Part shown: positions 1 through 11,958 of the stretch, one piece after another
How the letters are laid out: each line of letters starts with the position of its first letter
Position numbering within the stretch: the stretch's first letter is position 1
Source of the DNA: Candidatus Woesearchaeota archaeon
GTDB lineage: Archaea; Nanobdellota; Nanobdellia; Woesearchaeales; GW2011-AR9
Reading direction: 5' to 3'
Assembly: GCA_016179995.1 (NCBI GenBank)
Contig: JACPCC010000110.1
Location: 1 to 11,958 of the forward strand
Length of the DNA: 11,958 bases
Made by a program: the position numbers and the translations under genes
Notes under the pieces: model-generated
Databases searched by the model: none
Seen by the model: the letters and a program-made list of their open reading frames with translations, nothing else
What the model was told of the DNA's origin: nothing

Positions 1-206
1 TAAGAACTCCTAAATCTGGTTATCTTTACAGACGTTTATCTAACGCTATGCAAGATTTGAAAGTAGAATATGACTTAACTGTCCGTGATGCCAGCGGCAA
101 GGTTGTACAGTTCATGTATGGTGAAGATGGTTTAGACGTTTCCAAAACTAAGAAAGGCGAACTGGACGTGCAAAAAATAATTCACGATGCTAGTGAGGCT
201 CAATAA
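1..206 (+). CDS. rpoA1: DNA-directed RNA polymerase subunit A' (C-terminal end only)
   Basis: This is the last 67 codons of the archaeal RNA polymerase A' subunit, cut by the window start and read in the frame beginning at base 3. The visible residues include YRRLSNAMQDLKVEYDLTVRD followed shortly by QFMYGEDGLD, a segment typical of the A' C-terminus in archaea and of the matching part of eukaryotic Rpb1. A' carries most of the catalytic core, including the metal-binding loop, but that part lies outside the window. The stop is at 204-206 and the A'' gene starts two bases later, the usual archaeal split of the largest subunit. Tight spacing without a clear ribosome binding site suggests translational coupling or reinitiation. 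Identification is firm despite the short length. Confidence 0.93.
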   Translation, partial: RTPKSGYLYRRLSNAMQDLKVEYDLTVRDASGKVVQFMYGEDGLDVSKTKKGELDVQKIIHDASEAQ

Positions 207-208
207 AA

Positions 209-1348
209 ATGAAAAAAGAATGTGAATCATTAATGGAAGATTATAAAAATTTTCTTCCTTCGACTATCCTTGCTCAGATTCAAGAATCTTTGCCAGAAAG
301 TGTAAGCAAGGAGAAACTGACTAAAATATTGGAAGAAACAAAAAAATCTTATGAATCAGCTAAAATTAATCCCGGCGAGTGTGTTGGCCTAGTTAGCGCA
401 GAAAGTATTGGTGAGCCAGGAACGCAGATGACTCTTAACACTTTTCACTTTGCCGGTGTTTCCGAGATGAGTGTAACTACAGGACTGCCTCGGGTTATTG
501 AAATATTTGACGCCCGTAAAGATATTAAAACTCCTATGATGGAAATTTATTTTAAAGGCTCTCCTAGTATAGAAAAAATTAAAGAATTTGCCGCTAAAAT
601 CAAAGAAACAATCTTCAGTGAATTAGTCGAAGAATATGCATTAAATATTTACGAGCAGACTTTAAAAGTTAAACTTAACGCTTCTCTTTTAGAGAGCTAT
701 GATATTTCTGGTAAAGAGTTAGCTAAATTAACCAAGAGCAAAATAAAAAATTTTGAAGTAGATTTTGTTGAAGGAAATCTAATCTTCAAACAAACCTCTA
801 AAACCGACGAATTCAAACTGCTTTACGAATTGAAAGAAAAAATACACTCTCTTAGAATTAAAGGAATGAAGAACATAAGACAAGTTCTTCCTGTACGTCG
901 TGGTGAAGAATATATTATTTTAACTGCCGGAATTAATCTTAAAGAGATTTTGCCCCTGCCAGAAGTAGATGCTAATAGAACTACTTGCAATAACTTTTAT
1001 GAAATCAGAGATGTACTTGGAATAGAAGCAGCTAGGGAAGCCATTATTTTGGAATCTTATAAAGTTATTCAAGAACAAGGCTTGCATATTGACATCCGTC
1101 ATATCATGCTTGTAGCCGATATCATGACTGCCGGCGGAGTAATTAAAGGCATTACTAGATATGGTGTCGTTAGTGAAAAAGCCAGCGTTTTAGCTCGTGC
1201 TTCTTTTGAAACACCAATAAAGCATTTGGTTAATGCCGCTTTGGAAGGCGAAGTAGACTACTTAACTTCTGTAGTCGAAAATGTCATGATAAACCAGCCA
1301 GTTCCTTTAGGTACGGGCTTGCCTGGTTTGATTACTAAAATGAAATGA
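209..1348 (+). CDS. rpoA2: DNA-directed RNA polymerase subunit A''
   Basis: 379 residues, the normal size for archaeal A'', which with A' forms the equivalent of bacterial beta' and eukaryotic Rpb1. Residues 56-97 hold the bridge-helix end and trigger loop: GECVGLVSAESIGEPGTQMT, then LNTFHFAGV and GLPRVIEIFDA. The trigger loop moves during nucleotide addition. The C-terminal third has the conserved cleft segment around HIMLVADIMTAGG and SFETPIKHLVNAA, ending in a glycine-rich PLGTGLPGL. The middle (about 110-230) is the variable jaw region. The start is the first ATG, two bases after the A' stop, so the two are almost certainly cotranscribed and made in equal amounts. Asn at trigger-loop position 77 (MTLNTFH) is as in eukaryotic polymerase II. 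No frame disruption is seen. Confidence 0.97.
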   Translation: MKKECESLMEDYKNFLPSTILAQIQESLPESVSKEKLTKILEETKKSYESAKINPGECVGLVSAESIGEPGTQMTLNTFHFAGVSEMSVTTGLPRVIEIFDARKDIKTPMMEIYFKGSPSIEKIKEFAAKIKETIFSELVEEYALNIYEQTLKVKLNASLLESYDISGKELAKLTKSKIKNFEVDFVEGNLIFKQTSKTDEFKLLYELKEKIHSLRIKGMKNIRQVLPVRRGEEYIILTAGINLKEILPLPEVDANRTTCNNFYEIRDVLGIEAAREAIILESYKVIQEQGLHIDIRHIMLVADIMTAGGVIKGITRYGVVSEKASVLARASFETPIKHLVNAALEGEVDYLTSVVENVMINQPVPLGTGLPGLITKMK

Positions 1349-1400
1349 TGGCGTGTTGTAAAAATAAATAGAAATTATTAAAAACACACCTCTTAAAACA

Positions 1401-1452
1401 ATCAAAATAAACCATCAAGATAAATCATCAAAAGAAATCGTCAAAAAATAAA
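1401..1452 (+). repeat. Degenerate 13-bp tandem repeat, four units
   Basis: Four consecutive 13-mers are visible: atcaaaataaacc, atcaagataaatc, atcaaaagaaatc and gtcaaaaaataaa, at 1401, 1414, 1427 and 1440. Units share a tcaa start and an A-rich body; the first three differ from each other at two to four positions. The function is unknown. It could be slippage-born sequence or an unstructured spacer. Confidence 0.65.
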
Positions 1453-1554
1453 GAAATAAAGAAATAAACCAAAAGTGAATAAACAAAATCAATAAAAACT
1501 AAATTAAATAATAATCAGTTAAATAATCATTTTAAAACAAATTAAAAACAAATA

Positions 1555-1560
1555 GAGGAT
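1555..1560 (+). promoter_or_regulatory. Ribosome binding site of rpl30e
   Basis: The motif gaggat lies 4 nt upstream of the ATG at 1565 and stands out in an otherwise G-poor spacer. It supports both the chosen start and a leadered, cluster-internal mRNA. Confidence 0.65.
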
Positions 1561-1564
1561 TAAT

Positions 1565-1852
1565 ATGGCTCAAAAGAAAGCAGTAGACGAAGATTTAAAG
1601 TTACTAAAAGAAAAGTCACAAACAGGAAAAGCTTTGCTGGGCAAAGAAGAAGTTTTGCGTGGTCTAAGAAAAGGTTTGATTAAGAAAGTTTTTCTTTCCA
1701 GCAACTGCCAGCGTGAGATTAAAAGCGATGTTCTTCATTTTTCTAAATTAGCAGGCGCTGTAGTTGTCGAATTAAGTCTTAATAACGAGGAATTGGGTGT
1801 TCTTTGCAAAAAAAGTTACTTCATTTCTGTCGCAGGTATACTGGACGCGTAG
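1565..1852 (+). CDS. rpl30e: 50S ribosomal protein L30e
   Basis: 95 residues, the usual size for archaeal L30e (eL30), a large-subunit protein of the L7Ae/L30e/S12e kink-turn RNA-binding fold. The LLGKEEVLRGLRKGLIKKVF segment (about residues 24-43) corresponds to the family start 'G..ev.kair.gkaklv.ia', and ELGVLCKKSYFISVAGILD near the C-terminus matches the family's 'ELG.lcgkpf.vs.laI.d'. Its place between rpoA2 and nusA is the standard archaeal order, which strengthens the call over other L7Ae-fold proteins. The start is supported by a gaggat ribosome binding site. The stop is followed after 8 nt by nusA, so the two are probably translated from one message. Confidence 0.92.
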   Translation: MAQKKAVDEDLKLLKEKSQTGKALLGKEEVLRGLRKGLIKKVFLSSNCQREIKSDVLHFSKLAGAVVVELSLNNEELGVLCKKSYFISVAGILDA

Positions 1853-1857
1853 AGGAA
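1852..1857 (+). promoter_or_regulatory. Ribosome binding site of nusA, overlapping the rpl30e stop
   Basis: gaggaa begins at the last base of the rpl30e TAG and ends 3 nt before the nusA ATG at 1861, fixing the nusA start and suggesting coupled translation. Confidence 0.6.
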
Positions 1858-1860
1858 TAG

Positions 1861-2292
1861 ATGAGTCGGCTTAAGCTAGATCCGGAAGCAGTAGGAATTT
1901 CTGTCTTAGTAGAAAGATTTAGCGGCGTTCCCGTAAAAGATTGTTTTCAAGCTGATGACGAGATGATTTATATAATCATCGAACCAGGTTATATTGGCCG
2001 TGCTATCGGCAAAGGTGGAATGAATATTCATAATTTGCAGCAGGAACTGCACAAGAAAATAAAATTTATTGAGTTTCATGAAAACCCAAGCACTTTTGTC
2101 AAAAATATAATCTCTCCAATCATCGTTGAAAATATTTCTGAAGAAGAACATTTTATCATCATTAAAGATAAAAATCGTATGACAAAAAGTTTGTTAATCG
2201 GCAGAGAAGGAAAAAATTTGCTTCTCGTTAATCGCGCCGTAAAGCGCTTCTTTCCAAATAAAGAAGTTAAAGTAGAAAACCTTTATAAATAA
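1861..2292 (+). CDS. nusA: Archaeal NusA-like transcription factor (two KH domains)
   Basis: 143 residues, matching archaeal NusA, which keeps only the two KH RNA-binding domains and lacks the N-terminal polymerase-binding and S1 domains of bacterial NusA. The first KH domain spans about residues 10-75 with the GxxG loop in GRAIGKGGMNIHNLQ (46-60). The second spans about 80-140 with its loop at IGREGKNLLLVNRA (113-126). The product is expected to bind nascent RNA and act in transcription elongation or termination; in archaea the mechanism is poorly defined. It lies 8 nt after rpl30e in the conserved archaeal order and shares its transcript. The start is fixed by gaggaa just upstream. The identification is firm; the function is inferred from the family. 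Confidence 0.93.
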   Translation: MSRLKLDPEAVGISVLVERFSGVPVKDCFQADDEMIYIIIEPGYIGRAIGKGGMNIHNLQQELHKKIKFIEFHENPSTFVKNIISPIIVENISEEEHFIIIKDKNRMTKSLLIGREGKNLLLVNRAVKRFFPNKEVKVENLYK

Positions 2293-2293
2293 G

Positions 2294-2307
2294 TCTCATT
2301 TTTGAGA
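2294..2307 (+). terminator. Small hairpin right after nusA
   Basis: tctca, four T as loop, then tgaga form a 5-bp stem one base beyond the nusA stop. No long T-run follows, so this is at best a weak pause or processing site inside the operon. Confidence 0.25.
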
Positions 2308-2341
2308 GTAAATCAAAGAGTAAATTTAATTAAAATTAATC

Positions 2342-2380
2342 AAACAGAAAAATTAAATAGAAAAACTAAATAGAAAAACT
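2342..2380 (+). repeat. 13-bp tandem repeat, three units, upstream of rps12
   Basis: aaatagaaaaact occurs twice without a gap (2355-2367, 2368-2380). It is preceded directly by aaacagaaaaatt (2342-2354), which differs at two positions. The array lies in the 116-base A-rich nusA-rps12 spacer, 28 nt before the rps12 ATG. It has the same unit length as the array upstream of rpl30e but a different sequence. Confidence 0.75.
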
Positions 2381-2408
2381 AACACAACATCAAATTCAAC
2401 AAATAAAA

Positions 2409-2828
2409 ATGGCTAACAAACCACGCGGATTAGGTTCAGCAAAAAAGCTGATTAAACGAAGAAGAGATTTCAAAGAATTAAATCGTAAAACCTTAAAGAA
2501 GAAATTCGATCCTTTAGCTGGTTCCTCACAGGCCAAGGCTATTGTTCTAGAAAAAATTCAAGTTGAAGCTAAACAGCCAAACTCAGCCATGAGAAAGTGC
2601 GCTAGAGTTCAGTTAGTTAAAAATGGAAAACAAATTACTGCTTTCATGCCTGGAGACGGCGCTCAAAAATTGATTAACGAGCACGACGAAGTTATCGTCG
2701 AATGTATCGGCGGAAAAATGGGCCGCGCCATGGGAGATATTCCAGGAGTCAGATGGAGAGTCATTGTTGTTAACGATCAAAGTCTAAATGCTCTATTAAG
2801 AGGCAAATTAGAGAAAGCTAGAAGATAA
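2409..2828 (+). CDS. rps12: 30S ribosomal protein S12 (uS12)
   Basis: 139 residues, close to the archaeal S12 length. S12 lies in the decoding centre of the small subunit and contributes to codon-anticodon proofreading. The signature loop [15 protein letters not shown] is at residues 55-69, the second conserved loop PGDGA at 81-85, and the archaeal C-terminal segment [12 protein letters not shown] at 105-116, with a basic tail ending KARR. The start is an ATG with no purine-rich ribosome binding site close upstream and no TATA box at leaderless distance, so how initiation is directed is unclear. It precedes rps7 by 85 nt in the conserved order shared by bacteria and archaea. The last codons (tagaagataa) are duplicated just past the stop at 2832-2841, again with a 13-bp period. 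Confidence 0.96.
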
Positions 2829-2901
2829 AGTTAGAAGATAACGATAAACCTCTTAAATTAAACTAATTAAAATAATTTAACAAATTAAAAAATCAATCAA
2901 A

Positions 2902-2906
2902 AAGGT
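2902..2906 (+). promoter_or_regulatory. Ribosome binding site of rps7
   Basis: aaggt lies 7 nt before the ATG at 2914, at the end of an A-rich spacer. It is the only Shine-Dalgarno-like motif near that start. Confidence 0.5.
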
Positions 2907-2913
2907 AAAACTC

Positions 2914-3513
2914 ATGGATAACTTAAAATGTTTCAATCGCTGGAGTACAGAAGGTTTGAAAGTAGATGATTTTGGTTTGCAGAATTATATTACTATTAAT
3001 CCTAAAATCATGCCTAAGACTGGCGCTCGTTATGCCGGCAATCGTTTCCACAAATCTCAAACTTTTATTCTTGAAAGGTTAGCCACTAAATTGATGAATT
3101 CAGGACACAAAAGTAAGAAACACTTTATGAGTTCCGGTCACAACACAGGTAAGAAAAACTTAGCTTTAAAGATTGTAGAATATGCTTTATCCAAAGCCGA
3201 ATTAAAATTAAAGAAAAACCCCTTAGCTATTTTAATTAAAGCAGTAGAAAATTCAGCTCCACGAGAAGAGATAATTGCCATAGAGTATGGTGGTGCAAGA
3301 TATCCTAAAGCTGTAGATATTTCTCCTCAAAGAAGAGTAGATTTAGCCTTACGCGCCATAACTCAAGGTGCTTATTTAAAGTCATTTAACAAGAAAACTA
3401 AGATCGAAGACGCTTTATCTGAAGAGATTATCAGCGCAGCACAATGCAGCGGTAAAAGTAACGCTATCTCTAAAAAAAGAGACTTAGAAAGACAGTCTGC
3501 TAGTAGTAAGTAA
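2914..3513 (+). CDS. rps7: 30S ribosomal protein S7 (uS7)
   Basis: 199 residues, within the archaeal S7 size range. S7 binds 16S rRNA first in assembly of the small-subunit head and touches the E-site tRNA. Diagnostic features are NSAPREEIIAIEYGGARYPK (about 112-131), followed by ISPQRRVDLALRAITQGAY (136-154), the classical S7 RNA-binding helix, and a basic C-terminus with ISKKRDLERQSASSK. It follows rps12 as expected. In many archaea EF-2, EF-1A and S10 genes come next, but here the cluster ends: a T-rich stretch follows the stop and two unrecognised genes lie beyond. The ATG at 2914 is preceded by aaggt. Confidence 0.96.
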   Translation: MDNLKCFNRWSTEGLKVDDFGLQNYITINPKIMPKTGARYAGNRFHKSQTFILERLATKLMNSGHKSKKHFMSSGHNTGKKNLALKIVEYALSKAELKLKKNPLAILIKAVENSAPREEIIAIEYGGARYPKAVDISPQRRVDLALRAITQGAYLKSFNKKTKIEDALSEEIISAAQCSGKSNAISKKRDLERQSASSK

Positions 3514-3520
3514 AGTTTAA

Positions 3521-3568
3521 TTTTAATTTTTTACTTAATCTTTTTAGTATGTTTTAGACGTTATTTTT
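3521..3568 (+). terminator. T-rich terminator after rps7
   Basis: Runs of four, six, five, four and five T are spread over about 48 bases starting 8 nt after the rps7 stop. Archaeal RNA polymerase terminates at such T-tracts without needing a hairpin. This is the first T-rich stretch in the cluster and marks its likely end. Confidence 0.55.
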
Positions 3569-3582
3569 GTGGTGTTGAATTG

Positions 3583-3590
3583 AATTAAAA
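3583..3590 (+). promoter_or_regulatory. Possible TATA box of the first repeat-protein gene
   Basis: aattaaaa lies 25 nt before the ATG at 3616, close to the spacing of the clearer leaderless promoters in this window. The box is weak, so this is a tentative call. Confidence 0.35.
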
Positions 3591-3615
3591 TGAATCTTGC
3601 AATAAACTCCGTAAA

Positions 3616-4329
3616 ATGACTAATTATTCAAACAAAAAAAGCACTGCATCTTTACGAGACTTAGTAGAGGAAGTGGTTTTACAGGAAACATTCTTAAGTC
3701 TTCTACAAGAAAAATCGAGTGTTCCAAGAGAATACCTCTCTGATATAATTCGTAATAGTGACATCCAGAAAAAATATGTTAAAAATGTTATTCTTCACAA
3801 AAAATCAACTTATACTCTAAATGAAGGTTTCAGCAAAGAAGATTTACTTGAAGAAATTAACAATGTTTATACTTTTATGCTTCAATTGAAGATAGATCCA
3901 ACCAAGCATATCCCATTTAGAAAACGCAAGAGTAAAAAAAGCACTCATTGGGTATCATTATCTTATTTAAAAAGAGAAACAATCATTCCTGAAAAACATA
4001 TCAATTTAATTATTCGTAGTCCGGATATTCAAGAAAAGTATATTGGAGAGATCGCCTACCAAGGAAAACATACTTATCTTTTATTACAAGAAGAATTTGA
4101 TAAAGATTTTTTTGTAAGGGCGATTAATGATGTTTATACATCGATGCTTGAATCAAGAGAAGAAACTGGTGCTGCTCGTATTATAGATGAAACTCTCGAA
4201 TTTAAGATAAATGGTTCAAAAACATCAGTATCATCCTCGCAAGACCCATCTAATAATTCTGGAGGTTCTAGCTTAGAAGATGTTGATCTTTATGATATAA
4301 ATTTAAGCTACATCAGTGATGATGATTAA
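3616..4329 (+). CDS. Uncharacterised protein with two HTH-like repeats
   Basis: 237 residues; not a family I recognise. It contains an internal duplication: residues 26-92 align with 112-181 at an offset of 88-89. Conserved positions are a proline start of a helix (VPREY / IPEKH), paired isoleucines with Arg (IIR), DIQ-K-Y (SDIQKKY / PDIQEKY), a Thr-Tyr pair, and a final helix ending in INNVYTFML / INDVYTSML. The predicted order (helix, turn, helix with II, short loop, beta-hairpin, helix) resembles a winged helix-turn-helix, which would suggest nucleic-acid binding; this is inference. The linker (93-111) is basic. The C-terminal ~40 residues are Ser/Asn-rich and end acidic (ISDDD), probably disordered. 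The downstream neighbour carries the same unit. No signal peptide or membrane segment is seen. Confidence 0.7.
   Translation: MTNYSNKKSTASLRDLVEEVVLQETFLSLLQEKSSVPREYLSDIIRNSDIQKKYVKNVILHKKSTYTLNEGFSKEDLLEEINNVYTFMLQLKIDPTKHIPFRKRKSKKSTHWVSLSYLKRETIIPEKHINLIIRSPDIQEKYIGEIAYQGKHTYLLLQEEFDKDFFVRAINDVYTSMLESREETGAARIIDETLEFKINGSKTSVSSSQDPSNNSGGSSLEDVDLYDINLSYISDDD
3691..4158 (+). repeat. Intragenic protein-level duplication of a ~65-residue unit
   Basis: Codons for residues 26-92 (3691-3891) and 112-181 (3949-4158) encode two copies of the same unit. Over the best ungapped stretch of 33 residues I count 12 identities, and about 9 more over the last 19. The DNA itself has diverged well beyond this, so the duplication is old. 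Confidence 0.7.
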
Positions 4330-4370
4330 GGTGGCAAAGAGGAAGATTTTAAACCGCAATAATCTCTAAA

Positions 4371-5276
4371 ATGGATACTTCACAAATCGACCCGCAGAAA
4401 TGGTACAAATGGCAAGATTTTAGTAAAATTATTCCTGATAAAAATAGTTTTGGCTGTGTTGTTGATTTTTATCGTTTTACTGGTGACAAATATCTACAGA
4501 GAAATGAAGATGGAGAGGTTTCTGGTTCTTCTTTACAAGAGATAGTAGAAAAGTATACTCCTCGTCGGATTGTATTCAAAGATCTTATGAAAGAAACTGG
4601 TATTCCTAAAACCTATTTTGATCGAATTATTAAATTTAAAATAATTAAACAACAGTTTAAAAACGTTTCTTCCGGTCAAAGATATCTTTATATTCTAAAA
4701 GAAGGCATTAGTAAAGGTAGTTTATTAAAAGATCTAAACGAGTTTTATCAATTGGAACTATTTAGACAAAAATCCAAGACTAAGAACAAAATAGTTCATC
4801 AATCAAAATGTGATACTGACGCTTCTTTAAAACTAAAACCTAATCTTTTGGAATCTTCTTTAGAAAGGGCTAAGGTAGTTGAACAAAACGAGTTAGTTAA
4901 AAAAACTAGTCTTAATATTTTTGATGAAAACCGTTATGTCAATGTCGAATACAAAGCTTTGATTCATCTTTACTCGCAATTGCATCGGCTAGTTTATAAA
5001 AAGCTAGGAAAAAAAAGCACCCGCGATCTAGAAAAAGAAATTTTAAGAACGGTCATCATCACTTTAGCTCGTGATGAGATAGACCATAACACTTTTGCAT
5101 CTTTGGAACAAAAAATTAATCAACAATTTAATACAGAAATAAGTATTTCTGACTTTATAACAGAAGATGAAGATAATCTTGATCTAGATGAAATCCGTGA
5201 TGAAGAAGACGATCTTCCCGGAAGACGAAGCGGAAGCAAAACGAAAAGCTCTCAGAAAATTTACAAAGTAAAATAA
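4371..5276 (+). CDS. Uncharacterised protein sharing the HTH-like repeat
   Basis: 301 residues; family not recognised. Residues 66-130 match the repeat of the preceding gene: GIPKTYFDRII, then KNV, RYLYIL, and LKEGISKGSLLKDLNEFY, which shares 9 of 18 positions with LNEGFSKEDLLEEINNVY next door. Residues 11-62 look like a shortened, decayed copy (IPDKNSFGCVVDF and GDKYL...GEVSGSSLQEIVEKY). A variable linker (131-180) leads to a helical region, about 185-260, with no motif I know. An acidic stretch (263-281, mainly Asp/Glu) and a basic, Ser-rich tail follow. It starts 41 nt after its neighbour, on the same strand, probably in one transcript. A nucleic-acid-binding role is inferred from the HTH-like pattern only. 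It ends 32 nt from the convergent tgt gene. Confidence 0.68.
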   Translation: MDTSQIDPQKWYKWQDFSKIIPDKNSFGCVVDFYRFTGDKYLQRNEDGEVSGSSLQEIVEKYTPRRIVFKDLMKETGIPKTYFDRIIKFKIIKQQFKNVSSGQRYLYILKEGISKGSLLKDLNEFYQLELFRQKSKTKNKIVHQSKCDTDASLKLKPNLLESSLERAKVVEQNELVKKTSLNIFDENRYVNVEYKALIHLYSQLHRLVYKKLGKKSTRDLEKEILRTVIITLARDEIDHNTFASLEQKINQQFNTEISISDFITEDEDNLDLDEIRDEEDDLPGRRSGSKTKSSQKIYKVK

Positions 5277-5283
5277 TATGCAA

Positions 5284-5307
5284 TATCTACTATTTCTAAT
5301 ATAGATA
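5284..5307. terminator. Weak hairpin between convergent genes
   Basis: tatcta at 5284-5289 can pair with tagata at 5302-5307 around a 12-base loop, in the 32-base gap between two convergent genes. The stem is AT-only, so this is a low-confidence bidirectional terminator. Confidence 0.2.
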
Positions 5308-5308
5308 A

Positions 5309-6421
5309 TCACCCATAAACATTTCTAATATCTTTTCTAAACTGTTCAAATCTGCTTTCTTCAATCGCTTTCCGACATTCTTTCATCAAAGTATTTATGA
5401 AAAATAAATTATGTATACTTACCAGACGATAAAATACTGGTTCGTCTATTCTAATCAAATGATACAAATAAGCTTTAGTGTAATCTTTGCAAGTTGAACA
5501 ATTACATTTCTCATCCAGTGGTGTAAAGTCTTCTATATGCCGGCTCTGCCGTATGTTTAATTCTCCTTTCGAAGTAAATATATGTCCATGCCGGGCCATT
5601 TTTGTGGGATATACTGAATCAAAACAATCAATCCCTCGCGCTACTAACTCTATTATTTCTAATGGGCTTCCTACACCCATAACATAACGAGCTTTGTTTT
5701 CTGTAATAAATGGCAGTGCTGATTCCACGGCTTCATACATTTTATCTTTTGGCTCGCCAATAGCAACTCCACCTATAGCGATGCCGTCAAAATCTAAACT
5801 ATTAATGTATTTCGCGCTCTCTTCTCTTAAAGTTGGATAAAAATTTCCCTGTACAATGCCAAATAAAAGTTGTTTAGACTTTAATTTTTCTTTTAGCTCT
5901 TGATGGATTTCTAAACTTTCGCTTCCCCAGCGATGGGTATTTTCCATAGCTAATTTTGCTTCTTCAAAACTAGCACCATAAGGCGACATGTCATCCAACA
6001 TCATAGCTACGTCGCTGTTCAACGCCAATTCTATTTCCATAATTATTCTTGGTGTAATTATGAACTTATGCTGGTCAAATGGACATCTAAAATGCAGACC
6101 ATTCTTAGTTTTGTTTAAGAAAATCCCTCGAGACATTTGAAAGCCGCCGCAGTCTGTAAACATAATGCCCGAATAATTAATGAATTTATGCAATCCGCCA
6201 GCTTTCATAACTAAATCCGCGCCAGGACGTAAACTAAGTAGCAAAGCATTAGCGATTAAAGCTGGTAATCCAATTTCTTTGTAATCATCTGTAGTAATAT
6301 ACTTTCCAGTGCCTTTAGTGGCGGCGGGCATAAAGAACGGTGTTTCTATAATACCATGGGCTGTTTTTAATTGTCCACGACGAGCCTGGCCGTCTTGTTT
6401 AAGTAGTTTGTAGGAAGTCAT
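5309..6421 (-). CDS. tgt: tRNA-guanine transglycosylase, bacterial/queuosine type
   Basis: 370 residues, the length of bacterial TGT (about 370-380). Archaeal archaeosine TGT is much longer, with a C-terminal PUA region absent here. TGT swaps a guanine in tRNA for a 7-deazaguanine base. Asp90 in TDCGGFQMS and Asp268 in FDSVYPTKMARHG match the catalytic aspartates (Asp102 and Asp280 in Zymomonas numbering). FGIVQGNFY and GGVAIGEPKDKMY match the bacterial pocket loops. The zinc site is complete: Cys306, Cys308, Cys311 and His337, with the same 26-residue Cys-His spacing as bacterial TGT, followed by LMKECRKAI. Oddities are Cys91 for the usual Ser in DSGGFQ and Met145 where bacterial enzymes have Cys in DECTPY. 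The likely site is G34 of NDN-anticodon tRNAs; whether preQ1 or queuine is used cannot be decided. A TATA-like box lies at leaderless distance. Confidence 0.92.
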   Translation of the reverse strand: MTSYKLLKQDGQARRGQLKTAHGIIETPFFMPAATKGTGKYITTDDYKEIGLPALIANALLLSLRPGADLVMKAGGLHKFINYSGIMFTDCGGFQMSRGIFLNKTKNGLHFRCPFDQHKFIITPRIIMEIELALNSDVAMMLDDMSPYGASFEEAKLAMENTHRWGSESLEIHQELKEKLKSKQLLFGIVQGNFYPTLREESAKYINSLDFDGIAIGGVAIGEPKDKMYEAVESALPFITENKARYVMGVGSPLEIIELVARGIDCFDSVYPTKMARHGHIFTSKGELNIRQSRHIEDFTPLDEKCNCSTCKDYTKAYLYHLIRIDEPVFYRLVSIHNLFFINTLMKECRKAIEESRFEQFRKDIRNVYG

Positions 6422-6443
6422 TTAGTAATTTAATATAGTTTTA

Positions 6444-6451
6444 ATTTTAAT
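6444..6451 (-). promoter_or_regulatory. Possible TATA box of tgt
   Basis: On the minus strand attaaaat lies 22 nt upstream of the tgt ATG, the same spacing as the ZPR1 and microprotein promoters. The region is AT-rich throughout, so specificity is limited. Confidence 0.4.
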
Positions 6452-6549
6452 ATCTGCTAAAACTGGTGCTGTTTTAAAAAATATACTCTTAAAATATTAA
6501 AAGAAGAAAAATTCCGTAAAAATACTATCTCATAAAGCTTACTTCAGTT

Positions 6550-6631
6550 TTCCAGGAATTCTGTTTTATTTATAAACAAAGCTACAATTACCGGGAATCC
6601 TGGTAAAATTACGGTTGTGCCGAATTCCAGG
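6550..6631. repeat. CCAGG/GAATTC motif cluster with a hairpin in the tgt upstream spacer
   Basis: The 295-base gap 6422-6716 holds no gene I can support. It contains ttccaggaattc (6550-6561) and gaattccagg (6622-6631), giving a direct repeat of ttccagg 75 bases apart. Between them is a hairpin at 6588-6606 (ttaccggg, loop aat, cctggtaa; 8 bp with one G-T pair). These are the only G+C-rich islands in the spacer. They could be an operator or the terminator of the zinc-ribbon gene at 6717-7088; no function is recognised. Confidence 0.4.
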
Positions 6632-6716
6632 TTAATTTTGGCTAAATTTCAATCTTAAATAATTTTACTTAGTGATAATTAATTCAACAATTCCAAAGAA
6701 AACTAAACTTCAATCT

Positions 6717-7088
6717 TCATCTTCTTCCTTTTGGCACTTCCATATCACAATATGGGCAAGTATGCGGGGTCTGTCTTACCGGATCGTAACGAAATACATA
6801 CTTACAGCCCGTACAAGTGCATTCTAATAAACTACTTCCCATTAGATTTCTAAAATTGCCTTTTTCCTGTTGTTTCTGATGTGAAACCTTAGATAAATAA
6901 ACATCTACTTCATCCCAGCCGGCTGGTTTCTTATTCTCTTCAACTTTTTTCTTTTCTTTATCGGAGGCAGTTTTGCCGCTATAACAAGAAGGGCAGACCA
7001 TCATGCGGTATTGATAATGCAGTTTAAACTGATCTGAAGAAGCAAAACTTCCACACACTCGGCATTTAGCTTTAATTCCACCTATCAT
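6717..7088 (-). CDS. Small double zinc-ribbon protein
   Basis: 123 residues with two four-cysteine sites. The N-terminal one is Cys9-x2-Cys12 with Cys32-x2-Cys35 (AKCRVCGSF ... MVCPSCYSG). The C-terminal one is Cys92-x2-Cys95 with Cys111-x2-Cys114 (CTGCKYVFRYDP ... HTCPYCDMEVP), with Cys90 an extra nearby thiol. The ribbons are joined by a charged, Lys/Glu-rich linker (39-80). It is expected to be cytosolic and to bind zinc. The function is unknown; such proteins in archaea often touch RNA or protein partners, but nothing here shows which. A strong ribosome binding site (aggtga) 3 nt upstream fixes the start. It is divergent from ZPR1, so regulation may be shared, but its own promoter seems distant, giving a leadered mRNA. 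Confidence 0.8.
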   Translation of the reverse strand: MIGGIKAKCRVCGSFASSDQFKLHYQYRMMVCPSCYSGKTASDKEKKKVEENKKPAGWDEVDVYLSKVSHQKQQEKGNFRNLMGSSLLECTCTGCKYVFRYDPVRQTPHTCPYCDMEVPKGRR

Positions 7089-7091
7089 CTT

Positions 7092-7097
7092 TCACCT
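7092..7097 (-). promoter_or_regulatory. Ribosome binding site of the zinc-ribbon gene
   Basis: aggtga on the minus strand, 3 nt upstream of the ATG at 7088. It is one of the best Shine-Dalgarno motifs in the window and contrasts with the leaderless neighbours. Confidence 0.6.
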
Positions 7098-7218
7098 ATT
7101 GTTCTATGCTGATTATCATTCATCTATTATTAACACCGCACATCATTAACTCTACTAACAATATAACTACTCACCATCTATTTAATCAATCTTTATCTGC
7201 CAGAAGTAAACTAGTAGT

Positions 7219-7226
7219 ATTTATAC
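7219..7226 (-). promoter_or_regulatory. Possible TATA box far upstream of the zinc-ribbon gene
   Basis: The minus strand reads tataaata here, a near-consensus archaeal TATA box. Transcription would begin near 7195, giving a leader of roughly 105-110 nt before the ATG at 7088. That fits the presence of a ribosome binding site. No known riboswitch fold is evident in the leader. Confidence 0.3.
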
Positions 7227-7321
7227 TTTATGGGGAAGCAAAATATAGATGCTTTGCACTAGAAAGTTCCATTCATCCCAAAATTACCGCCTATAATTCC
7301 ACTGCTAAAAATTTCGATATC

Positions 7322-7331
7322 TTTTTAAATA
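7322..7331 (+). promoter_or_regulatory. TATA box of a leaderless ZPR1 transcript
   Basis: tttttaaata, with the tttttaaa core ending 22 nt before the ATG at 7352. Archaeal transcription starts about 25 nt after the box centre, which would place the 5' end at or next to the ATG. This decides against the longer reading frame that opens at 7106. Confidence 0.6.
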
Positions 7332-7351
7332 AGACTTTCTTTTTGACCTTT

Positions 7352-7876
7352 ATGGTAGAACTAAAAGGACAACACTGCTCGTTTTGTAATGAGAACAAGC
7401 TTGTTTTACGTGAAGAACAGATGGATATTCCTCACTTTGGCAAAGTATTCATACTTACTATGGAGTGTGAGGGCTGCGGCTATAAGAAAGCTGACGTAGA
7501 ACCTGCCGAGAAAAAAGAACCTTGTAAATTTACTCTAGACATCACAGCAGAAGCAGATATGAGTATCAAAATCGTAAAATCTGGTGATGCTACCGTTAAA
7601 ATTCCCCATATCATAACTATGGAACCTGGACCTGCTTCTGAGGGTTACATCACTAATATTGAAGGTCTATTGGAGCGGGTAAAAGGTATCATTCAGATGT
7701 CTATCGACACCGGTGATGAAGACGAAGATAATAGTGCCGAAAAGAAAAAAGCTAAAAATCTTATTAAAAAATTGGATAACGTCATTTTAGGTAGAGACAC
7801 ATTAAAATTAATTATTGAAGACCCTAACGGACATAGCGCGATTATTTCTGAGAAAGCAGTTAGAAGTAGGATTTAA
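7352..7876 (+). CDS. ZPR1-type zinc finger protein
   Basis: 174 residues from the ATG at 7352. The frame stays open back to 7106, but those 82 residues are low-complexity and cover the promoter, and archaeal ZPR1 proteins start just before the zinc finger as here. The zinc finger is Cys9-x2-Cys12 and Cys39-x2-Cys42 (QHCSFC ... MECEGCGYK). The ZPR1 beta-domain follows, with the family signature EPGPASEGYITNIEGLLERV at 91-110 and the DPNGHSAII motif at 157-165. Archaea carry one such domain where eukaryotic ZPR1 has two. Eukaryotic ZPR1 binds and helps fold elongation factor eEF1A; the archaeal role is not settled. An acidic loop (119-129) interrupts the domain. A T-rich terminator follows the stop. 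Confidence 0.9.
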   Translation: MVELKGQHCSFCNENKLVLREEQMDIPHFGKVFILTMECEGCGYKKADVEPAEKKEPCKFTLDITAEADMSIKIVKSGDATVKIPHIITMEPGPASEGYITNIEGLLERVKGIIQMSIDTGDEDEDNSAEKKKAKNLIKKLDNVILGRDTLKLIIEDPNGHSAIISEKAVRSRI

Positions 7877-7884
7877 TGTAATGT

Positions 7885-7904
7885 TTAGTTTTTTAGTTTT
7901 TGTT
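7885..7904 (+). terminator. T-rich terminator after ZPR1
   Basis: Runs of six and five T within 20 bases, starting 8 nt after the ZPR1 stop, are typical of archaeal termination. The convergent gene ends 27 nt further on. Confidence 0.5.
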
Positions 7905-7930
7905 ATCTTAAATTTTAATCTTAATTTCTA

Positions 7931-8779
7931 CTAAATTCTTCCTTTTAATTGTATTAAACATAGGTCTAATTCATTTAGATACATTCGACCATAATCTTCG
8001 CTTTCTAAATCATTAAACAAGTTATCTGGCAGGTCTTGTTCGTATTGATCGGAACAGGAAGCTGCACCTAAAGCAATTGTAGCAACAGTATCTACATCTC
8101 CTGAGAAATTGATGCAGTCTTTCAATAAATCACTCATCTTTCTGTTTCTAGTCACAGCTGTTATGGCAGCTTTAACACTCATCCAGCCTTGAGCTCCAAC
8201 TTTACCATTCCATTTATCTGACCATCTTCCTGGCACGTATTTCTCGATGAAACTACCTATCTCAGCAACAGAACCTAAATCATAAAGACAATAGTGACTC
8301 ATTAAAGATGCAGCAATAGCCGCATTTATTCCATCTGTAGTGTTGTGCGTTATTTTTGCCTGAATAGTACTCTTTTCAATTATATCATCGATATTACTAT
8401 AAATTCCAATCGGTGAAGCTCGCATGGCTGCCCCGCTTTTATCGCTATCTGGTTTAATTTTTCTGAGAAATTCATCTCCATCTTTAACTTCCTTAAGAAA
8501 TTCCTGAAATCTATGGGCATAACCCTCTCGAGGATCTCTTTTGAAACAGTCTACAAATTTTTGAGTTATGTTTTGCGCTGTCCATTCTTCTTTAGAAAGA
8601 ATCATTTCAGCGATAGCTAAGCTCATTTGCGTATCATCGGTATACATTCCAGGTTTAGTGCCTATATGTTTCGGATGTTGAATATATTGGCTTAAATTAT
8701 TGTATTGAGCAATAACTTCGGAAGTGTTATATTCAAACCCTGCACCATAAGCATCGCCAATGGCTAATTCGAGAAGCAT
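7931..8779 (-). CDS. ADP-ribosylglycohydrolase family protein (DraG/ARH fold)
   Basis: 282 residues. The family removes ADP-ribose from proteins, nucleic acids or small molecules using two magnesium ions. The metal ligands are present: YTDDTQM at 46-52 and SGDVDTVA at 226-233, corresponding to the TDDT and D-x-DT sites. SGAAMRASPIG (115-125) and the TH pair at 144-145 line the ADP-ribose pocket. The N-terminus (LAIGDAYGAGFEY) matches the family start, so the ATG at 8779 is reasonable. The substrate cannot be read from sequence. It lies 65 nt downstream of arvC on the same strand but has its own TATA box (tttttaaa) at leaderless distance, so it may be independently expressed. It ends convergently with ZPR1. 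It should be catalytically competent. Confidence 0.88.
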   Translation of the reverse strand: MLLELAIGDAYGAGFEYNTSEVIAQYNNLSQYIQHPKHIGTKPGMYTDDTQMSLAIAEMILSKEEWTAQNITQKFVDCFKRDPREGYAHRFQEFLKEVKDGDEFLRKIKPDSDKSGAAMRASPIGIYSNIDDIIEKSTIQAKITHNTTDGINAAIAASLMSHYCLYDLGSVAEIGSFIEKYVPGRWSDKWNGKVGAQGWMSVKAAITAVTRNRKMSDLLKDCINFSGDVDTVATIALGAASCSDQYEQDLPDNLFNDLESEDYGRMYLNELDLCLIQLKGRI

Positions 8780-8800
8780 ACTAATTTTGAAAATATTTCA

Positions 8801-8808
8801 TTTAAAAA
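8801..8808 (-). promoter_or_regulatory. TATA box of the ADP-ribosylglycohydrolase gene
   Basis: The minus strand reads tttttaaa, ending 21 nt before the ATG at 8779. The box core is identical to that of ZPR1 and at nearly the same distance, indicating a leaderless transcript. Confidence 0.55.
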
Positions 8809-8844
8809 TATTAAGCAACAAACATCTTAAAAATAATTAAATCT

Positions 8845-9225
8845 CTATTTCTTCGTTTCTTTCTTAAATGCCATGGGCAAATCAATAATATACTTTCCTT
8901 CTTCTAATTTAATAATTAAAGGATCTTTCTTAAACAAATGCACTAAATCTAATTCATATTTGCCTGGATGCATTACTCTTATCGACTCGAAATCAAGCAC
9001 TACTGGTTTGTCAGGATCTTCCATCTTCAAATTTAGAATTTCCGAAACATCTTCTTGAATATTATTTTTTTCTTCTTCAGTGAGATTACTAATCATATTT
9101 TGTCCATCTTCTAAATCTTTCTTCTTGATGAAGAAAAATAATCTAGCGCCACAGTTGCAGCCTTTTAGAATTTCTTGTGATCCATCTGGATAAAGAGTAT
9201 TGCAACGAACGCATTGGTGTGGCAT
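8845..9225 (-). CDS. arvC: ArvC/OapC-like zinc-ribbon protein of the vesicle-GTPase cluster
   Basis: 126 residues. An N-terminal zinc ribbon (Cys5-x2-Cys8 and Cys23-x-Cys25, in MPHQCVRCNTLYPDGSQ and KGCNCGARLFFFIKKKD) is followed by a charged linker. A C-terminal beta-rich region (about 70-120, VVLDFESIRVMHPGKYELDL...EEGKYIIDL) completes it. This is the layout of the archaeal family once called OapC and found beside an Era-like GTPase. The second cysteine pair has one residue between cysteines rather than two, so zinc geometry may be unusual. Its role in vesiculation is undefined. It lies 117 nt after arvB on the same strand. A weak ribosome binding site (aggtca, 9231-9236) and a TATA-like box near 9250-9257 suggest an internal promoter. 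Confidence 0.82.
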   Translation of the reverse strand: MPHQCVRCNTLYPDGSQEILKGCNCGARLFFFIKKKDLEDGQNMISNLTEEEKNNIQEDVSEILNLKMEDPDKPVVLDFESIRVMHPGKYELDLVHLFKKDPLIIKLEEGKYIIDLPMAFKKETKK

Positions 9226-9236
9226 TTTATTGACCT

Positions 9237-9278
9237 AATTTTTATATTCTATTTAATATACTAAATTTAATATATTCA
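9237..9278. repeat. AT-only ~14-bp tandem units in the arvB-arvC spacer
   Basis: atttaatatactaa (9251-9264) and atttaatattca-like sequence (9265-9278, beginning atttaatata) are adjacent 14-mers, preceded by a looser copy at 9237-9250. Part of it may serve as the arvC TATA element. This is low complexity, so chance similarity is possible. Confidence 0.35.
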
Positions 9279-9342
9279 ATATCAGACTTAACAACAACTA
9301 ACTTTTTTAAAACCTTACCTAAAACTCTAAATAAACTAAGAT

Positions 9343-9738
9343 CTACCTTCTCTTTTTCTTTTTGCCATTAACACTTTCTTTCATGAACATTTCAATTTTA
9401 TCAGGGTTACGTTCTATTTTTTTAACTACTGATGCTGGTCCGATGATAGTAAAGCCGATTCTATCCCCTAATAAAACATTAGCAAAAACACCTTTTATTT
9501 TTTGTACAGCATTTTGACTGTAAGTTTCTGGACTAATTACGCTAAGTTCAATCCCGTGAAACTTGGCATTAATCTCTTCCATAGTAATCTCGATTAAATC
9601 CGCTTCTTCTTCTTTTCTTAGGCGTCCTTCCATGATTACTATTTTATCTTCTTTGACAATATTTAGAAGTTTATTAACTCGTTTAGCTGAACCTAAATTT
9701 TCTATGTCCTGATACGGAACAAAATGAAATGTAACCAT
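9343..9738 (-). CDS. arvB: ArvB/OapB-like protein (DUF2073)
   Basis: 131 residues of the archaeal DUF2073 family, encoded next to the Era-like GTPase in many euryarchaea and DPANN. The family core is KIVIMEGRLRKEEEADLIEITMEEI (32-56, split here by my numbering), followed by FHGIELSVIS and a region ending IGFTIIGPASVVKKIERNP. The C-terminus is a basic tail (GKKKKRR) that could contact membrane lipids or nucleic acid; that is inference. The fold looks alpha/beta with no transmembrane helix. Minus-strand gagg lies directly against the ATG, and a better-placed agaggt lies about 10 nt upstream. With no TATA box at leaderless distance, it is probably on the arvA message. Confidence 0.85.
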   Translation of the reverse strand: MVTFHFVPYQDIENLGSAKRVNKLLNIVKEDKIVIMEGRLRKEEEADLIEITMEEINAKFHGIELSVISPETYSQNAVQKIKGVFANVLLGDRIGFTIIGPASVVKKIERNPDKIEMFMKESVNGKKKKRR

Positions 9739-9866
9739 CCTCTTTTTTACCTCTTAACTTCTGCTTCACGTCTTTATGATAGTGGAGTATAATTTTGAGC
9801 TTTTTAAAGCTTTTTACTTCTTAATTAGGTTATACCTTGTGTTTCTCTGTAATCACTACTTATTTC

Positions 9867-10505
9867 TTACTTTGCCAGTTTGAACAGCTGCTCATAAAAG
9901 TCCTCAATATTCTTTCCATACTTAGCGGAAATACCTACTATTTCATATTGTGGGAAAGCAGCTTTCATAGCCTCTACACTTGATTTTTTTAAATCAACTT
10001 TGTTAGCGGCAATTAAGACGGGAATATTTCGTGCTTGTAAGTTGCCGATAATAGTAATATTAACCTGTGAATAAGGGTCTTTAGTGGCATCTAAAACAAC
10101 TACAACTGAATCCATGTTATCTAACCACTTAATTGCGTCGATAACGCCTTTTGTGGCTTCTTTAGCACGTTTCTTAGCTTCGGTCTTTTTCATACCTTTT
10201 TTTAAGAATTCTTCATAATCAATCCGAGTAGCAATTCCAGGAGTATCGACTAAAGAGAAAGTCAATTCTCTTCCTTTTTTATTTTTGATGCTCACTTGCT
10301 CTTTGATATTGATTTCTCTGGTTTCGTGAGCAATATGTGATACAGTAGACATTTCTTCACCAAGCCAGTCTAAGCAAATACGATTAGCTAGGGTTGACTT
10401 TCCTCCGTTGGGCGGTCCATATAGTCCTAGTTTAATATGGCTCTTTTTAGAGAAAGGATTAGACGAAATCTTCTTCAGTATGTTTTTCCAGAATTGTGTG
10501 ACCAT
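9867..10505 (-). CDS. arvA: ArvA/OapA-like small GTPase (Era-like), extracellular vesicle formation
   Basis: 212 residues with all GTPase motifs: P-loop GPPNGGKST (30-38), switch I Thr in AHETRE (59-64), switch II DTPG (87-90), NKVD (168-171) and SAK (193-195). Family-specific stretches HETREINIKEQ, VDTPGIATRIDYEEFLKKGM and DPYSQVN closely resemble the haloarchaeal protein first called OapA (origin-associated) and later ArvA, a small GTPase reported to drive extracellular vesicle production in Euryarchaeota. Residues 1-13 (MVTQFWKNILKKI) form a potential amphipathic helix, with hydrophobic residues at 2, 5, 6, 9, 10 and 13, as expected for reversible membrane binding. arvB and arvC follow on the same strand. 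It is divergent from the membrane microprotein gene, sharing a 107-base promoter region. The function is inferred from family and gene order; the GTPase call itself is firm. Confidence 0.9.
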   Translation of the reverse strand: MVTQFWKNILKKISSNPFSKKSHIKLGLYGPPNGGKSTLANRICLDWLGEEMSTVSHIAHETREINIKEQVSIKNKKGRELTFSLVDTPGIATRIDYEEFLKKGMKKTEAKKRAKEATKGVIDAIKWLDNMDSVVVVLDATKDPYSQVNITIIGNLQARNIPVLIAANKVDLKKSSVEAMKAAFPQYEIVGISAKYGKNIEDFYEQLFKLAK

Positions 10506-10540
10506 CTTTTTTCTAATAGCTTGAAATCCAAGAGGTATTC

Positions 10541-10548
10541 TTAAAGTT
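10541..10548 (-). promoter_or_regulatory. Possible TATA box of arvA
   Basis: The minus strand reads aactttaa about 35 nt upstream of the arvA ATG, which would give a short leader of roughly 13 nt. No purine-rich ribosome binding site precedes the ATG. Confidence 0.3.
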
Positions 10549-10582
10549 TTTGGTAGTGTAATGGGTAGGATGAACAGAATGA

Positions 10583-10590
10583 TTTATAAG
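10583..10590 (+). promoter_or_regulatory. TATA box of the membrane microprotein operon
   Basis: tttataag ends 22 nt before the ATG at 10613, the same spacing as the ZPR1 promoter. This predicts a leaderless mRNA starting at the microprotein and supports that very short gene being real. Confidence 0.6.
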
Positions 10591-10612
10591 TTCATTCTTC
10601 TTTATTACCCCC

Positions 10613-10720
10613 ATGAATCCATTACTGCTGTTGTTTTTAATAGGTACTGCCAATCTTACTATCTATTGGATATTTTTCGGCAAAAAGAGGTTTGAAGAAC
10701 AATGTCAGAAAAATTCTTGA
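10613..10720 (+). CDS. 35-residue single-span membrane microprotein
   Basis: A short frame from ATG 10613 to TGA 10718-10720. Residues 2-22 are almost all hydrophobic (NPLLLLFLIG then TANLTIYWIFF), followed by a positively charged, polar tail (GKKRFEEQCQKNS). That gives one membrane helix with the tail expected in the cytoplasm. Support for it being a gene is the TATA box at leaderless distance and the 19-base overlap with the next gene, whose ATG at 10702 lies inside it, a typical sign of coupled translation. The function is unknown. Its partner is probably the downstream 168-residue protein; it also sits divergently next to the ArvA membrane GTPase. Its length makes chance occurrence possible, so confidence is moderate. 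Confidence 0.6.
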   Translation: MNPLLLLFLIGTANLTIYWIFFGKKRFEEQCQKNS

Positions 10721-11208
10721 TCATAGACCATTTAAAATTGGGATATAAAGGCTTGTTCAATGCTGCGGAGTTATATAATGTCATTGCATCCTGGTTCTTC
10801 GGAAAAGGTTGGGATTGGAAAGAAGCCGTAAACATGGAACGGGTTACACCAGAAGGGATACAGATCCACCAAGTTCATGAACCATGGAAAAGCGTTTCTG
10901 ATTATTATAAGATTTATATGAGAATTACCTTAAATATGATTGATGTAAAGGAGGTTGAAGTTGAATTTGAAGGAAAAACACTAAGGTTAAATCAAGGAGA
11001 AGTAAGGATGACCATTGACGGTTATGTTGTAGCTGATAGAAATAATTTCTGGACAGAACAGCCCTTCTTATGGTTTTTCACTATTATTTCTCAGAAATAT
11101 TTCTTCAAAAATCACTTTCAGAAATTTGAAGCATGGATAAAAGGAGATGTAGAAGACTTACACGATCGCGTTAAAAATTACTTAAATACCTTAACACTAA
11201 TGTTTTGA
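10702..11208 (+). CDS. Uncharacterised conserved-looking protein, 3' end probably replaced
   Basis: 168 residues, family not named by me. The sequence looks like a soluble alpha/beta protein: a helical N-terminus (YKGLFNAAELYNVIASWFF), alternating strands (residues 70-112, with KEVEVEFEGKTLRLNQGEVR and MTIDGYVVAD), an aromatic segment (WTEQPFLWFFTIISQKYFF, 117-135) and a helical end (DVEDLHDRVKNYLN). It overlaps the upstream membrane microprotein by 19 bases, and agaggt (10686-10691) may serve as ribosome binding site. The last residues (TLTLMF) are probably not native: from about 11175 the same bases read, in another frame, as the interior of a PfkB kinase. The true C-terminus may thus be missing by a few or many residues. 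It is probably co-expressed with the microprotein. Confidence 0.65.
   Translation: MSEKFLIIDHLKLGYKGLFNAAELYNVIASWFFGKGWDWKEAVNMERVTPEGIQIHQVHEPWKSVSDYYKIYMRITLNMIDVKEVEVEFEGKTLRLNQGEVRMTIDGYVVADRNNFWTEQPFLWFFTIISQKYFFKNHFQKFEAWIKGDVEDLHDRVKNYLNTLTLMF
11172..11200. other. Probable join between two unrelated sequences
   Basis: Up to about 11187 the bases make sense as the end of the 168-residue protein (VKNYLN). From 11175 on they make sense in another frame as PfkB interior (KLLKYLNTNVLITRGEKGMS). The kinase frame has a stop at 11172-11174 and no start with a plausible upstream domain. The overlap of about 13 bases legible in both frames is what a short-homology recombination or an assembler misjoin would leave. 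Confidence 0.6.
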
Positions 11209-11468
11209 TAACCAGGGGGGAAAAAGGCATGTCTTTGTTTGAAAAAGATGGAAATACAACAACTATACCTGCAAAAGCAAGAGAAGTATACAGCTTGATA
11301 GGAGCAGGAGACACAGTTGTTGCGACAATAGCTTTGGCAGCTGCATCAGGAGCTGAGTTAAAAGAAGCGGCATTGCTTGCTAACATTGCGGCCGGCATCA
11401 AAGTTGGAAAAATTGGCACTGCTTCCGTAAGCATAGACGAAATAAAAAAAGAAATTGAAAATTTATGA
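11205..11468 (+). CDS. 5'-truncated PfkB-family sugar kinase (heptose-7-phosphate kinase type)
   Basis: The C-terminal part of a ribokinase/PfkB-fold kinase. The first usable start is TTG at 11205 (87 residues), but recognisable sequence begins at 11175. The intact family is about 310-330 residues, so roughly the first 200 or more are missing. VLITRGEKGMSLFEKDG and the catalytic IGAGDTVVATIALA (the GAGD anion hole with the catalytic Asp) match the kinase half of HldE/RfaE, which phosphorylates D-glycero-D-manno-heptose 7-phosphate. GIKVGKIGTASVS is the typical ending. The 4-nt overlap (ATGA) with a GmhB-type phosphatase gene supports heptose activation for surface glycans. As it stands it cannot be active: the substrate domain is absent. 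Codon use differs from the rest of the window. Confidence 0.8.
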   Translation: MITRGEKGMSLFEKDGNTTTIPAKAREVYSLIGAGDTVVATIALAAASGAELKEAALLANIAAGIKVGKIGTASVSIDEIKKEIENL

Positions 11469-11958
11469 CATCAGCAATTTTCCTTGACAGAGATGGTGTA
11501 TTAGTTGAAGATATAGGTTTTCATTACAAAATTGAAGATTTTAAATTAACTCCAAATGCAGTTGAAGGACTAAAATTGTTAAAAAATTATAAATTGATAA
11601 TAATTACAAATCAATCCGGCATCGGAAGAGGATATTACACAATGAAAGATTTTAAAATTTTTAATGATTATTTAATTGATGAACTAAAAAAACACAGTAT
11701 AAAAATAGAAAAAACTTATGTGTGCCCACACAAGCCGGAAGATAATTGCGAATGCAGAAAGCCAAAAACAAAACTGATTAAAGACGCAGAAAAAGATTTT
11801 AATATTGATTTGAAAAATTCATACATGATAGGCGATAAAAATATTGATGTTGAAATGGGACATAATGCGGGCTGCAAGTCAATTTTAGTCTTGACCGGCA
11901 ACGGAATGAAAGAAAAAGGGCATTCAAAAGCAGATTACGTTGCGAAGGATTTATTCGA
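11465..11958 (+). CDS. gmhB: HAD phosphatase of the GmhB/histidinol-phosphatase type (cut by window end)
   Basis: 164 codons are visible and the gene runs off the window; the family is about 170-190 residues, so little is missing. HAD motifs are FLDRDGVL (6-13, nucleophile Asp8 and acid/base Asp10), ITNQSG (47-52, motif II) and MIGDKNIDVEMG (121-132, metal-binding Asp124 and Asp128). The zinc-stabilised loop is Cys87-x-His89 and Cys95-x-Cys97 (CPHKPEDNCECRKPK), which marks the HisB-N/GmhB group. GmhB removes the 1-phosphate of heptose 1,7-bisphosphate. Context with a heptose-kinase fragment favours GmhB over histidinol phosphatase. The start is an ATG overlapping the kinase stop as ATGA. Its codon use (many ATA and GCA/GCG) resembles the kinase fragment, not the upstream genes. 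Confidence 0.88.
   Translation, partial: MTSAIFLDRDGVLVEDIGFHYKIEDFKLTPNAVEGLKLLKNYKLIIITNQSGIGRGYYTMKDFKIFNDYLIDELKKHSIKIEKTYVCPHKPEDNCECRKPKTKLIKDAEKDFNIDLKNSYMIGDKNIDVEMGHNAGCKSILVLTGNGMKEKGHSKADYVAKDLF

Follow-up and report, generated by a model that had tools for sequence, protein, structure and literature searches.

Two genes between rps7 and tgt

Genes that resemble nothing in the databases are numerous in DPANN genomes, and the two adjacent genes described here, A and B, come from a Candidatus Woesearchaeota archaeon whose draft genome (assembly GCA_016179995.1, here G000) comprises 870,932 bases in 131 contigs and is 77% complete. Both lie on the window, by which the whole analysed stretch of 11,958 nucleotides is meant (contig JACPCC010000110.1, positions 1 to 11,958 of the forward strand), and both encode proteins containing one repeated unit, carried twice by A and once by B, for which a winged-helix fold is predicted. 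The gene order is rps7 (2914..3513, + strand), gene A (3616..4329, +; 237 amino acids), gene B (4371..5276, +; 301 amino acids) and then tgt on the opposite strand (5309..6421, -), recognised by NCBIfam profile matches, the adjacency of rps7 and tgt serving as the marker of the site. Both open reading frames (ORFs) were found at the coordinates given by an earlier sequence-only reading of this DNA, which had placed the pair directly after rps7, a position borne out by the match of the upstream gene to TIGR01028 (208.3 bits, cut-off 200). The guanine-plus-cytosine (GC) content of A and B drops from the first to the third codon position, as it does in four neighbouring genes, third-position GC being slightly lower in A and B (0.21 and 0.22) than in these neighbours (0.27-0.32).

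The repeated unit and the domain plan

Judged by Smith-Waterman alignment against 1000 shuffles with a Gumbel fit, the repeat in A and B is real and far above chance. Residues 1-100 of A align with residues 101-237 at a score of 122, the best shuffle reaching 60 (p about 2e-9), and with B at a score of 112, the best shuffle reaching 72 (p about 2e-7); the alignment of A 101-237 with B is weak alone, with a score of 59 equalled by 2 of 1000 shuffles. A profile of the three units places them at residues 23-93 and 111-182 of A and 66-130 of B, close to the 26-92, 112-181 and 66-130 of the sequence-only reading, whose claim of two units in A and one in B stands; having been built on those very units, this profile fixes boundaries and is no proof of repetition. 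A second profile, made from seven units of three distant proteins outside the window, recovers all three: unit A1 scores 25.9 bits, A2 20.4 bits and B2 19.7 bits, and none of the 1961, 1943 and 1979 scored shuffles, respectively, is as high. This recovery is partly circular, because four of the seven units come from the proteins D5 and D6 (described below), which were first reached via a profile that included the window units. Run on the archaeon's own draft genome, a six-unit profile has A and B as its sole matches at E 0.1 or better. Two further stretches of B were tried and rejected as units, since their profile scores fall within those of shuffles: residues 1-66 (346 of 950 as high), which form a separate N-terminal domain instead, and residues 165-275 (291 of 990).

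The winged helix is a fold that usually grips DNA, via a recognition helix and a wing. In an AlphaFold2 model of unit A1, for which the input was five aligned rows, a strand (3-5) is followed by three helices (6-16, 21-28 and 31-36), two strands (38-43 and 46-51) and a last helix (57-75), so that the model contains the three-helix helix-turn-helix core and the succeeding beta-hairpin wing by which a winged helix is recognised. The best of five models has a mean predicted local distance difference test (pLDDT) score of 84.2, the others ranging from 54 to 79. Among solved structures the closest folds belong mostly to DNA-binding regulators, although their scores are low, and a viral fold library returned nothing below E 0.2. 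The model topology supports the winged helix-turn-helix that had been proposed for the unit, and the low-scoring fold neighbours may point the same way.

Along the plus strand, A consists of unit A1 (residues 23-92, 3682..3891), delimited by profiles and modelled as above, a basic linker with a net charge of +6 in 18 residues (3892..3945), unit A2 (residues 111-181, 3946..4158), likewise delimited by profiles, and a Ser-rich acidic tail of net charge -10 (4159..4326). B begins with an N-terminal domain (residues 1-62, 4371..4556) that is common to two distant relatives and modelled at low confidence, followed by unit B2 (residues 63-131, 4557..4763; net +7), placed by profiles, charge and a model of B, a linker, a helical domain (residues 187-262, 4929..5156), defined by a profile and helical in a low-confidence model, and an acidic segment with a basic end, defined by charge (5157..5273). 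Residues 3-19 of A (3622..3672) match residues 45-61 of B, the end of its N-terminal domain, and are possibly a remnant of such a domain; when the local alignment of A 1-23 was tested, 12 of 5000 shuffles scored at least as high against B 44-64, and 17 of 5000 against B 1-64. It is as if A had arisen when a gene resembling B was duplicated and then lost parts.

Relatives and the sites they occupy

Comparison of 53 rps7 loci, in which the ORFs after rps7 were listed (L034 and L042 end there), reveals that the gene following rps7 varies widely. The closest locus, L009 from a sister genus, encodes between rps7 and tgt, as the window does, a protein of 430 amino acids, C (L009:2701-3993), which fits the three-unit profile better than any other ORF of these loci (E 2.6e-4, the next at 0.008). 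C carries three units; its linker is rich in Ser (29%), and Asp plus Glu make up 56% of its tail. Scored with the window profile, C2 is equalled by 8 of 1915 shuffles and C3 by 0 of 1953; C1 is not significant with that profile alone (237 of 1893) and is equalled by 1 of 1820 when all other units are used. A second C-type protein, P0003, is 75% identical over 67%. Between P0002 and P0003, both of C type, residues 102-262 are identical at 139 of 160 positions, against 14 of 48 for residues 47-101, which cover most of unit 1; this part looks as if it had been exchanged or diversified.

D5 (600 amino acids, G305) and D6 (401 amino acids, G306), from one genus of a different family in the order, were found with the six-unit profile among 352 genomes of the order, six of which matched at E 0.003 and two of which were dropped (G021, and G299 with two stops inside). 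D5 and D6 first appeared with E-values of 1.2e-3 and 2.5e-4 per genome, which would not by themselves decide the matter in a set of 352 genomes. The three window units, however, score the third unit of D5 and the unit of D6 above every shuffle, the first and second units of D5 being equalled by 4 of 1705 and 26 of 1902 shuffles; an all-unit profile built without the tested unit gives 13 of 1780 and 15 of 1903 for these two. Pairwise, B aligns with D6 at p 6e-5 and with D5 at p 0.002, and D5 internally repeats a block of unit plus helical domain (p about 1e-6). The acidic tail of D5 ends Asp-rich with Pro-Phe close to the end (L079:2871-2900, -), a feature reminiscent of the acidic tip that single-strand-binding proteins of bacteria carry.

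Evidence from outside the search that found D5 and D6 is provided by the other domains, with segment limits that were set after the alignments had been viewed. A profile of the D5 and D6 N-terminal domains scores that of B (as residues 1-66) at 7.8 bits, a value that none of 841 scored shuffles attained, and the reverse tests on D5 and D6 gave 7 of 853 and 3 of 815. Residues 186-270 of B score 18.1 bits with a profile of the three helical-domain copies in the relatives (0 of 974 scored shuffles as high), and the two copies in D5 are equalled by 0 of 944 and 0 of 947 shuffles; the D6 helical domain fails its profile test (92 of 880), and single pairwise tests of the B helical region are weak (p 0.013, 0.2 and 0.14). 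Through these matches B reads as N-terminal domain, unit, helical domain and acidic segment. The units of the window and of the distant proteins are only 11-29% identical, which would fit a likeness produced by chance or low complexity; that explanation is nevertheless very improbable and already contradicted by the cross-prediction of units by profiles, the shared domain order and, for C, the shared gene site. The family is not confined to one lineage, as the sequence-only reading had supposed it might be, since D5 and D6 belong to another family of the order.

With the ten-unit profile, nine of the 352 genomes matched at E 0.01 and four were counted as members (G000, G005, which holds C, G305 and G306); in 378 genomes drawn from the class, four matched at E 0.005, with G000 and G306 as members and G204 and G356 dropped. 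Such profile counts may miss more diverged members. In a six-unit profile scan seven of nine matched genomes were dropped, and most frames of the dropped matches were judged by reading. Also by reading, G021 (L065) and G011 (L069/L090) were rejected as members, their proteins looking like ordinary winged-helix proteins, and L088 was rejected as recombinase-like. Residues 1-505 of D5, as a query over the 352 genomes, found only D5 itself.

The rps7 site is empty at two loci of one genus (L117 and L122), where tgt lies directly after rps7 with no gene between. Within the available DNA tgt was found in 4 of the 53 rps7 loci (L009, L011, L025 and L027); in L011, L025 and L027 other genes intervene. 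An RNA-binding or translation-associated role would suit genes that adjoin rps7 and the tRNA-modifying tgt; it is rendered rather improbable, however, by the empty sites, by the presence of a convincing relative at only L009 of the 53 loci, and by the location of D5 and D6 elsewhere, beside a PHP-type protein, which matches TIGR00375 below its cut-off, and a gene of 181 or 186 amino acids, an arrangement alike in G305 and G306 by reading. Among seven further loci of the PHP-type gene (L100-L106), an unrecognised ORF stands beside it in four (L101, L104, L105 and L106), L103 lacks an extra ORF, L102 has a different neighbour and L100 ends there; the surroundings of this gene are a possible hypervariable site. 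The genes beside it in G307, G310, G311 and G304 were rejected as family members, because 11 of 12 profile tests were at chance or unscored and the last, of L105 against the N-terminal profile, was weak (14 of 262 shuffles as high).

Several of these features would be expected of an accessory gene that evolves quickly, either under conflict or with a mobile origin (a virus, a plasmid or host interaction), and in which the array serves as a rapidly diversified binding module: credible members occur in just 4 of 352 genomes of the order, sites are empty, forms of 600 and 401 amino acids share one site within one genus, unit 1 diverges between P0002 and P0003, and third-position GC is a little below that of the neighbours. 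On the other side, no relative came up in three scans of viral contigs, whose reach is limited to close relatives, PADLOC gave no match, and no transposase or integrase was recognised among the window ORFs by reading. We consider such an origin unlikely, though it is one of the two main rivals to the explanation favoured below, and it is compatible with DNA binding. A bolder form of it, somewhat less likely again, would be a hypervariable modular family of winged-helix arrays that DPANN archaea carry at particular sites, its units being duplicated and swapped and outpacing the flanking genes, with a DNA recognition diversified by conflict and serving, for example, to silence incoming DNA or to act against the DNA of another cell. 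Fast change at fixed sites, if true, would make unit shuffling directly testable.

Known families, possible function and the rest of the window

At permissive cut-offs, Pfam, NCBIfam, PHROG and PADLOC assign A and B to no family, nothing lying over a cut-off or clearly above chance and the PHROG matches being at chance level. Weak HAD-hydrolase matches of the B unit (E 0.005-0.03) fall below the curated cut-offs and were put down to chance. Sequence search of the PDB returned nothing for A, and among PDB sequences the ten-unit profile matched 19 entries, none better than E 0.02 and most of them unrelated proteins, with one PadR regulator at E 0.5. No credible match to A or B was found elsewhere in 39 related genomes and their own, matches in G039 (six stops inside) and in G017, G029 and G032 (E 0.013-0.028) having been dropped. 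Among the open-licence titles that literature searches listed, none describes the family, which is weak evidence, as the family has no name to search for. A search of 5.8 billion proteins, dependent on shared five-letter words, found only A itself for A and nothing for B; synteny, unit profiles and a fold model have assigned this pair, for which that search gave no relative, to a family, and a profile and domain plan are now available for finding more members. The suggestion of an unrecognised family that grows by unit duplication is supported by these negatives and by the existence of proteins of one, two and three units and of a repeated block of unit plus helical domain.

The closest known proteins differ from A and B in several ways. 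The MerR-like winged helix, as in the DNA-binding domain of RacA, is 5% identical to the unit with no sequence-profile match, neither A and B (Pfam E up to 10, NCBIfam E up to 1) nor the ten units (Pfam E up to 10) giving a MerR match in searches whose filters drop most matches over about E 0.1; RacA is not known to have tandem arrays or acidic tails. MarR/SarA, BlaI/MecI and ArsR proteins generally have one winged helix per chain, and no Pfam family of these kinds matched A, B or the ten units. The Cro/C1-type helix-turn-helix family HTH_26 matched whole D5 at E 6e-4, its best stretch (151-179) overlapping the second unit of D5, and one of the ten units alone at E 0.044; the gathering cut-off was not reached (20.4 against 22 bits for D5), no single stretch passed, and only one relative was involved, so that the match is only a hint.

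Taken together, A and B are tentatively explained as paralogous modular winged-helix proteins of an unnamed Woesearchaeota family, most likely architectural or regulatory DNA-binding factors, a reading to which we give slightly less than an even chance. The repetition of units, the relatedness of the proteins and the order of their domains are shown and the fold of the unit is predicted, whereas DNA binding, multivalency, disorder and the roles of the helical domain and the tail are inferred. The winged helices, above all the basic one in B, would bind double-stranded DNA multivalently, several acting in one chain or assembly with the assistance of basic linkers, the helical domain would join chains by self-association, and the acidic, probably disordered tail may compete with DNA, tune binding or dock partners, while the family would grow by unit duplication. 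Acidic tails or segments recur among the members, with net charges of -14 in C, -25 in D5, -24 in D6 and -4 in B beside the -10 of A. If the arrays bind DNA, they would add an unusual design of tandem winged helices to cells whose genomes are very small.

The charges of the units weigh against this explanation where A is concerned. The charge of B2 and that of the A linker, set against 0 for A1 and -2 for A2, favour nucleic-acid binding for B and do not favour it for A, which may therefore act through protein contacts, having turned to these instead of DNA. This consideration leads to the other main rival, which applies above all to A: the units would be protein-interaction winged helices that work like the tandem ones in the KITE subunits of structural maintenance of chromosomes (SMC) complexes, A pairing with B or another partner and making no DNA contact. 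KITE proteins (ScpB, MukE, Nse1/Nse3) are fixed tandem proteins of two winged-helix domains, and A, with two near-neutral winged helices plus a tail and with the B gene adjacent, appears to resemble them in being a small protein that carries a pair of winged helices. However, members of the family have one to three units together with other domains, and no smc or scpA was recognised by reading among the window ORFs, the rest of the genome not having been searched for them. Contact with protein only is unlikely as an account of the pair. What is described here is a small, diverged, fast-changing and unnamed family that puts a known fold into new arrangements and is, on present evidence, of interest to archaeal genomics but not a new kind of system.

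The remaining genes of the window lie beyond B. The window tgt passes the position-34 model TIGR00430 (400 against a cut-off of 307) and is well below the archaeal position-15 model TIGR00432 (145 against 350), a position-34-type tgt being unusual in an archaeon; within the family, 35 of 49 genomes, its own included, match it at E 1e-60, and their identities fall into two groups, 61-71% and 37-43%. Genes for the named origin-associated proteins OapC (8848-9225, -; 91.6 bits) and OapB (9346-9738, -; 63.8 bits) are preceded upstream by an Era-like GTPase gene (9870-10505). A link to an origin of replication through them was rejected, and their presence is taken as coincidence, because the 53 rps7 loci yielded neither OapB nor OapC, and the same was true of 41 loci surrounding tgt and the PHP-type gene. 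A member of the ADP-ribosylglycohydrolase family is encoded at 7934-8779 (-; 121.7 bits). At 11205-11468 (+), after an unrecognised ORF of 168 amino acids, a PfkB-type sugar kinase is represented by its final portion alone (profile positions 225-297 of 302), and this kinase is apparently truncated.
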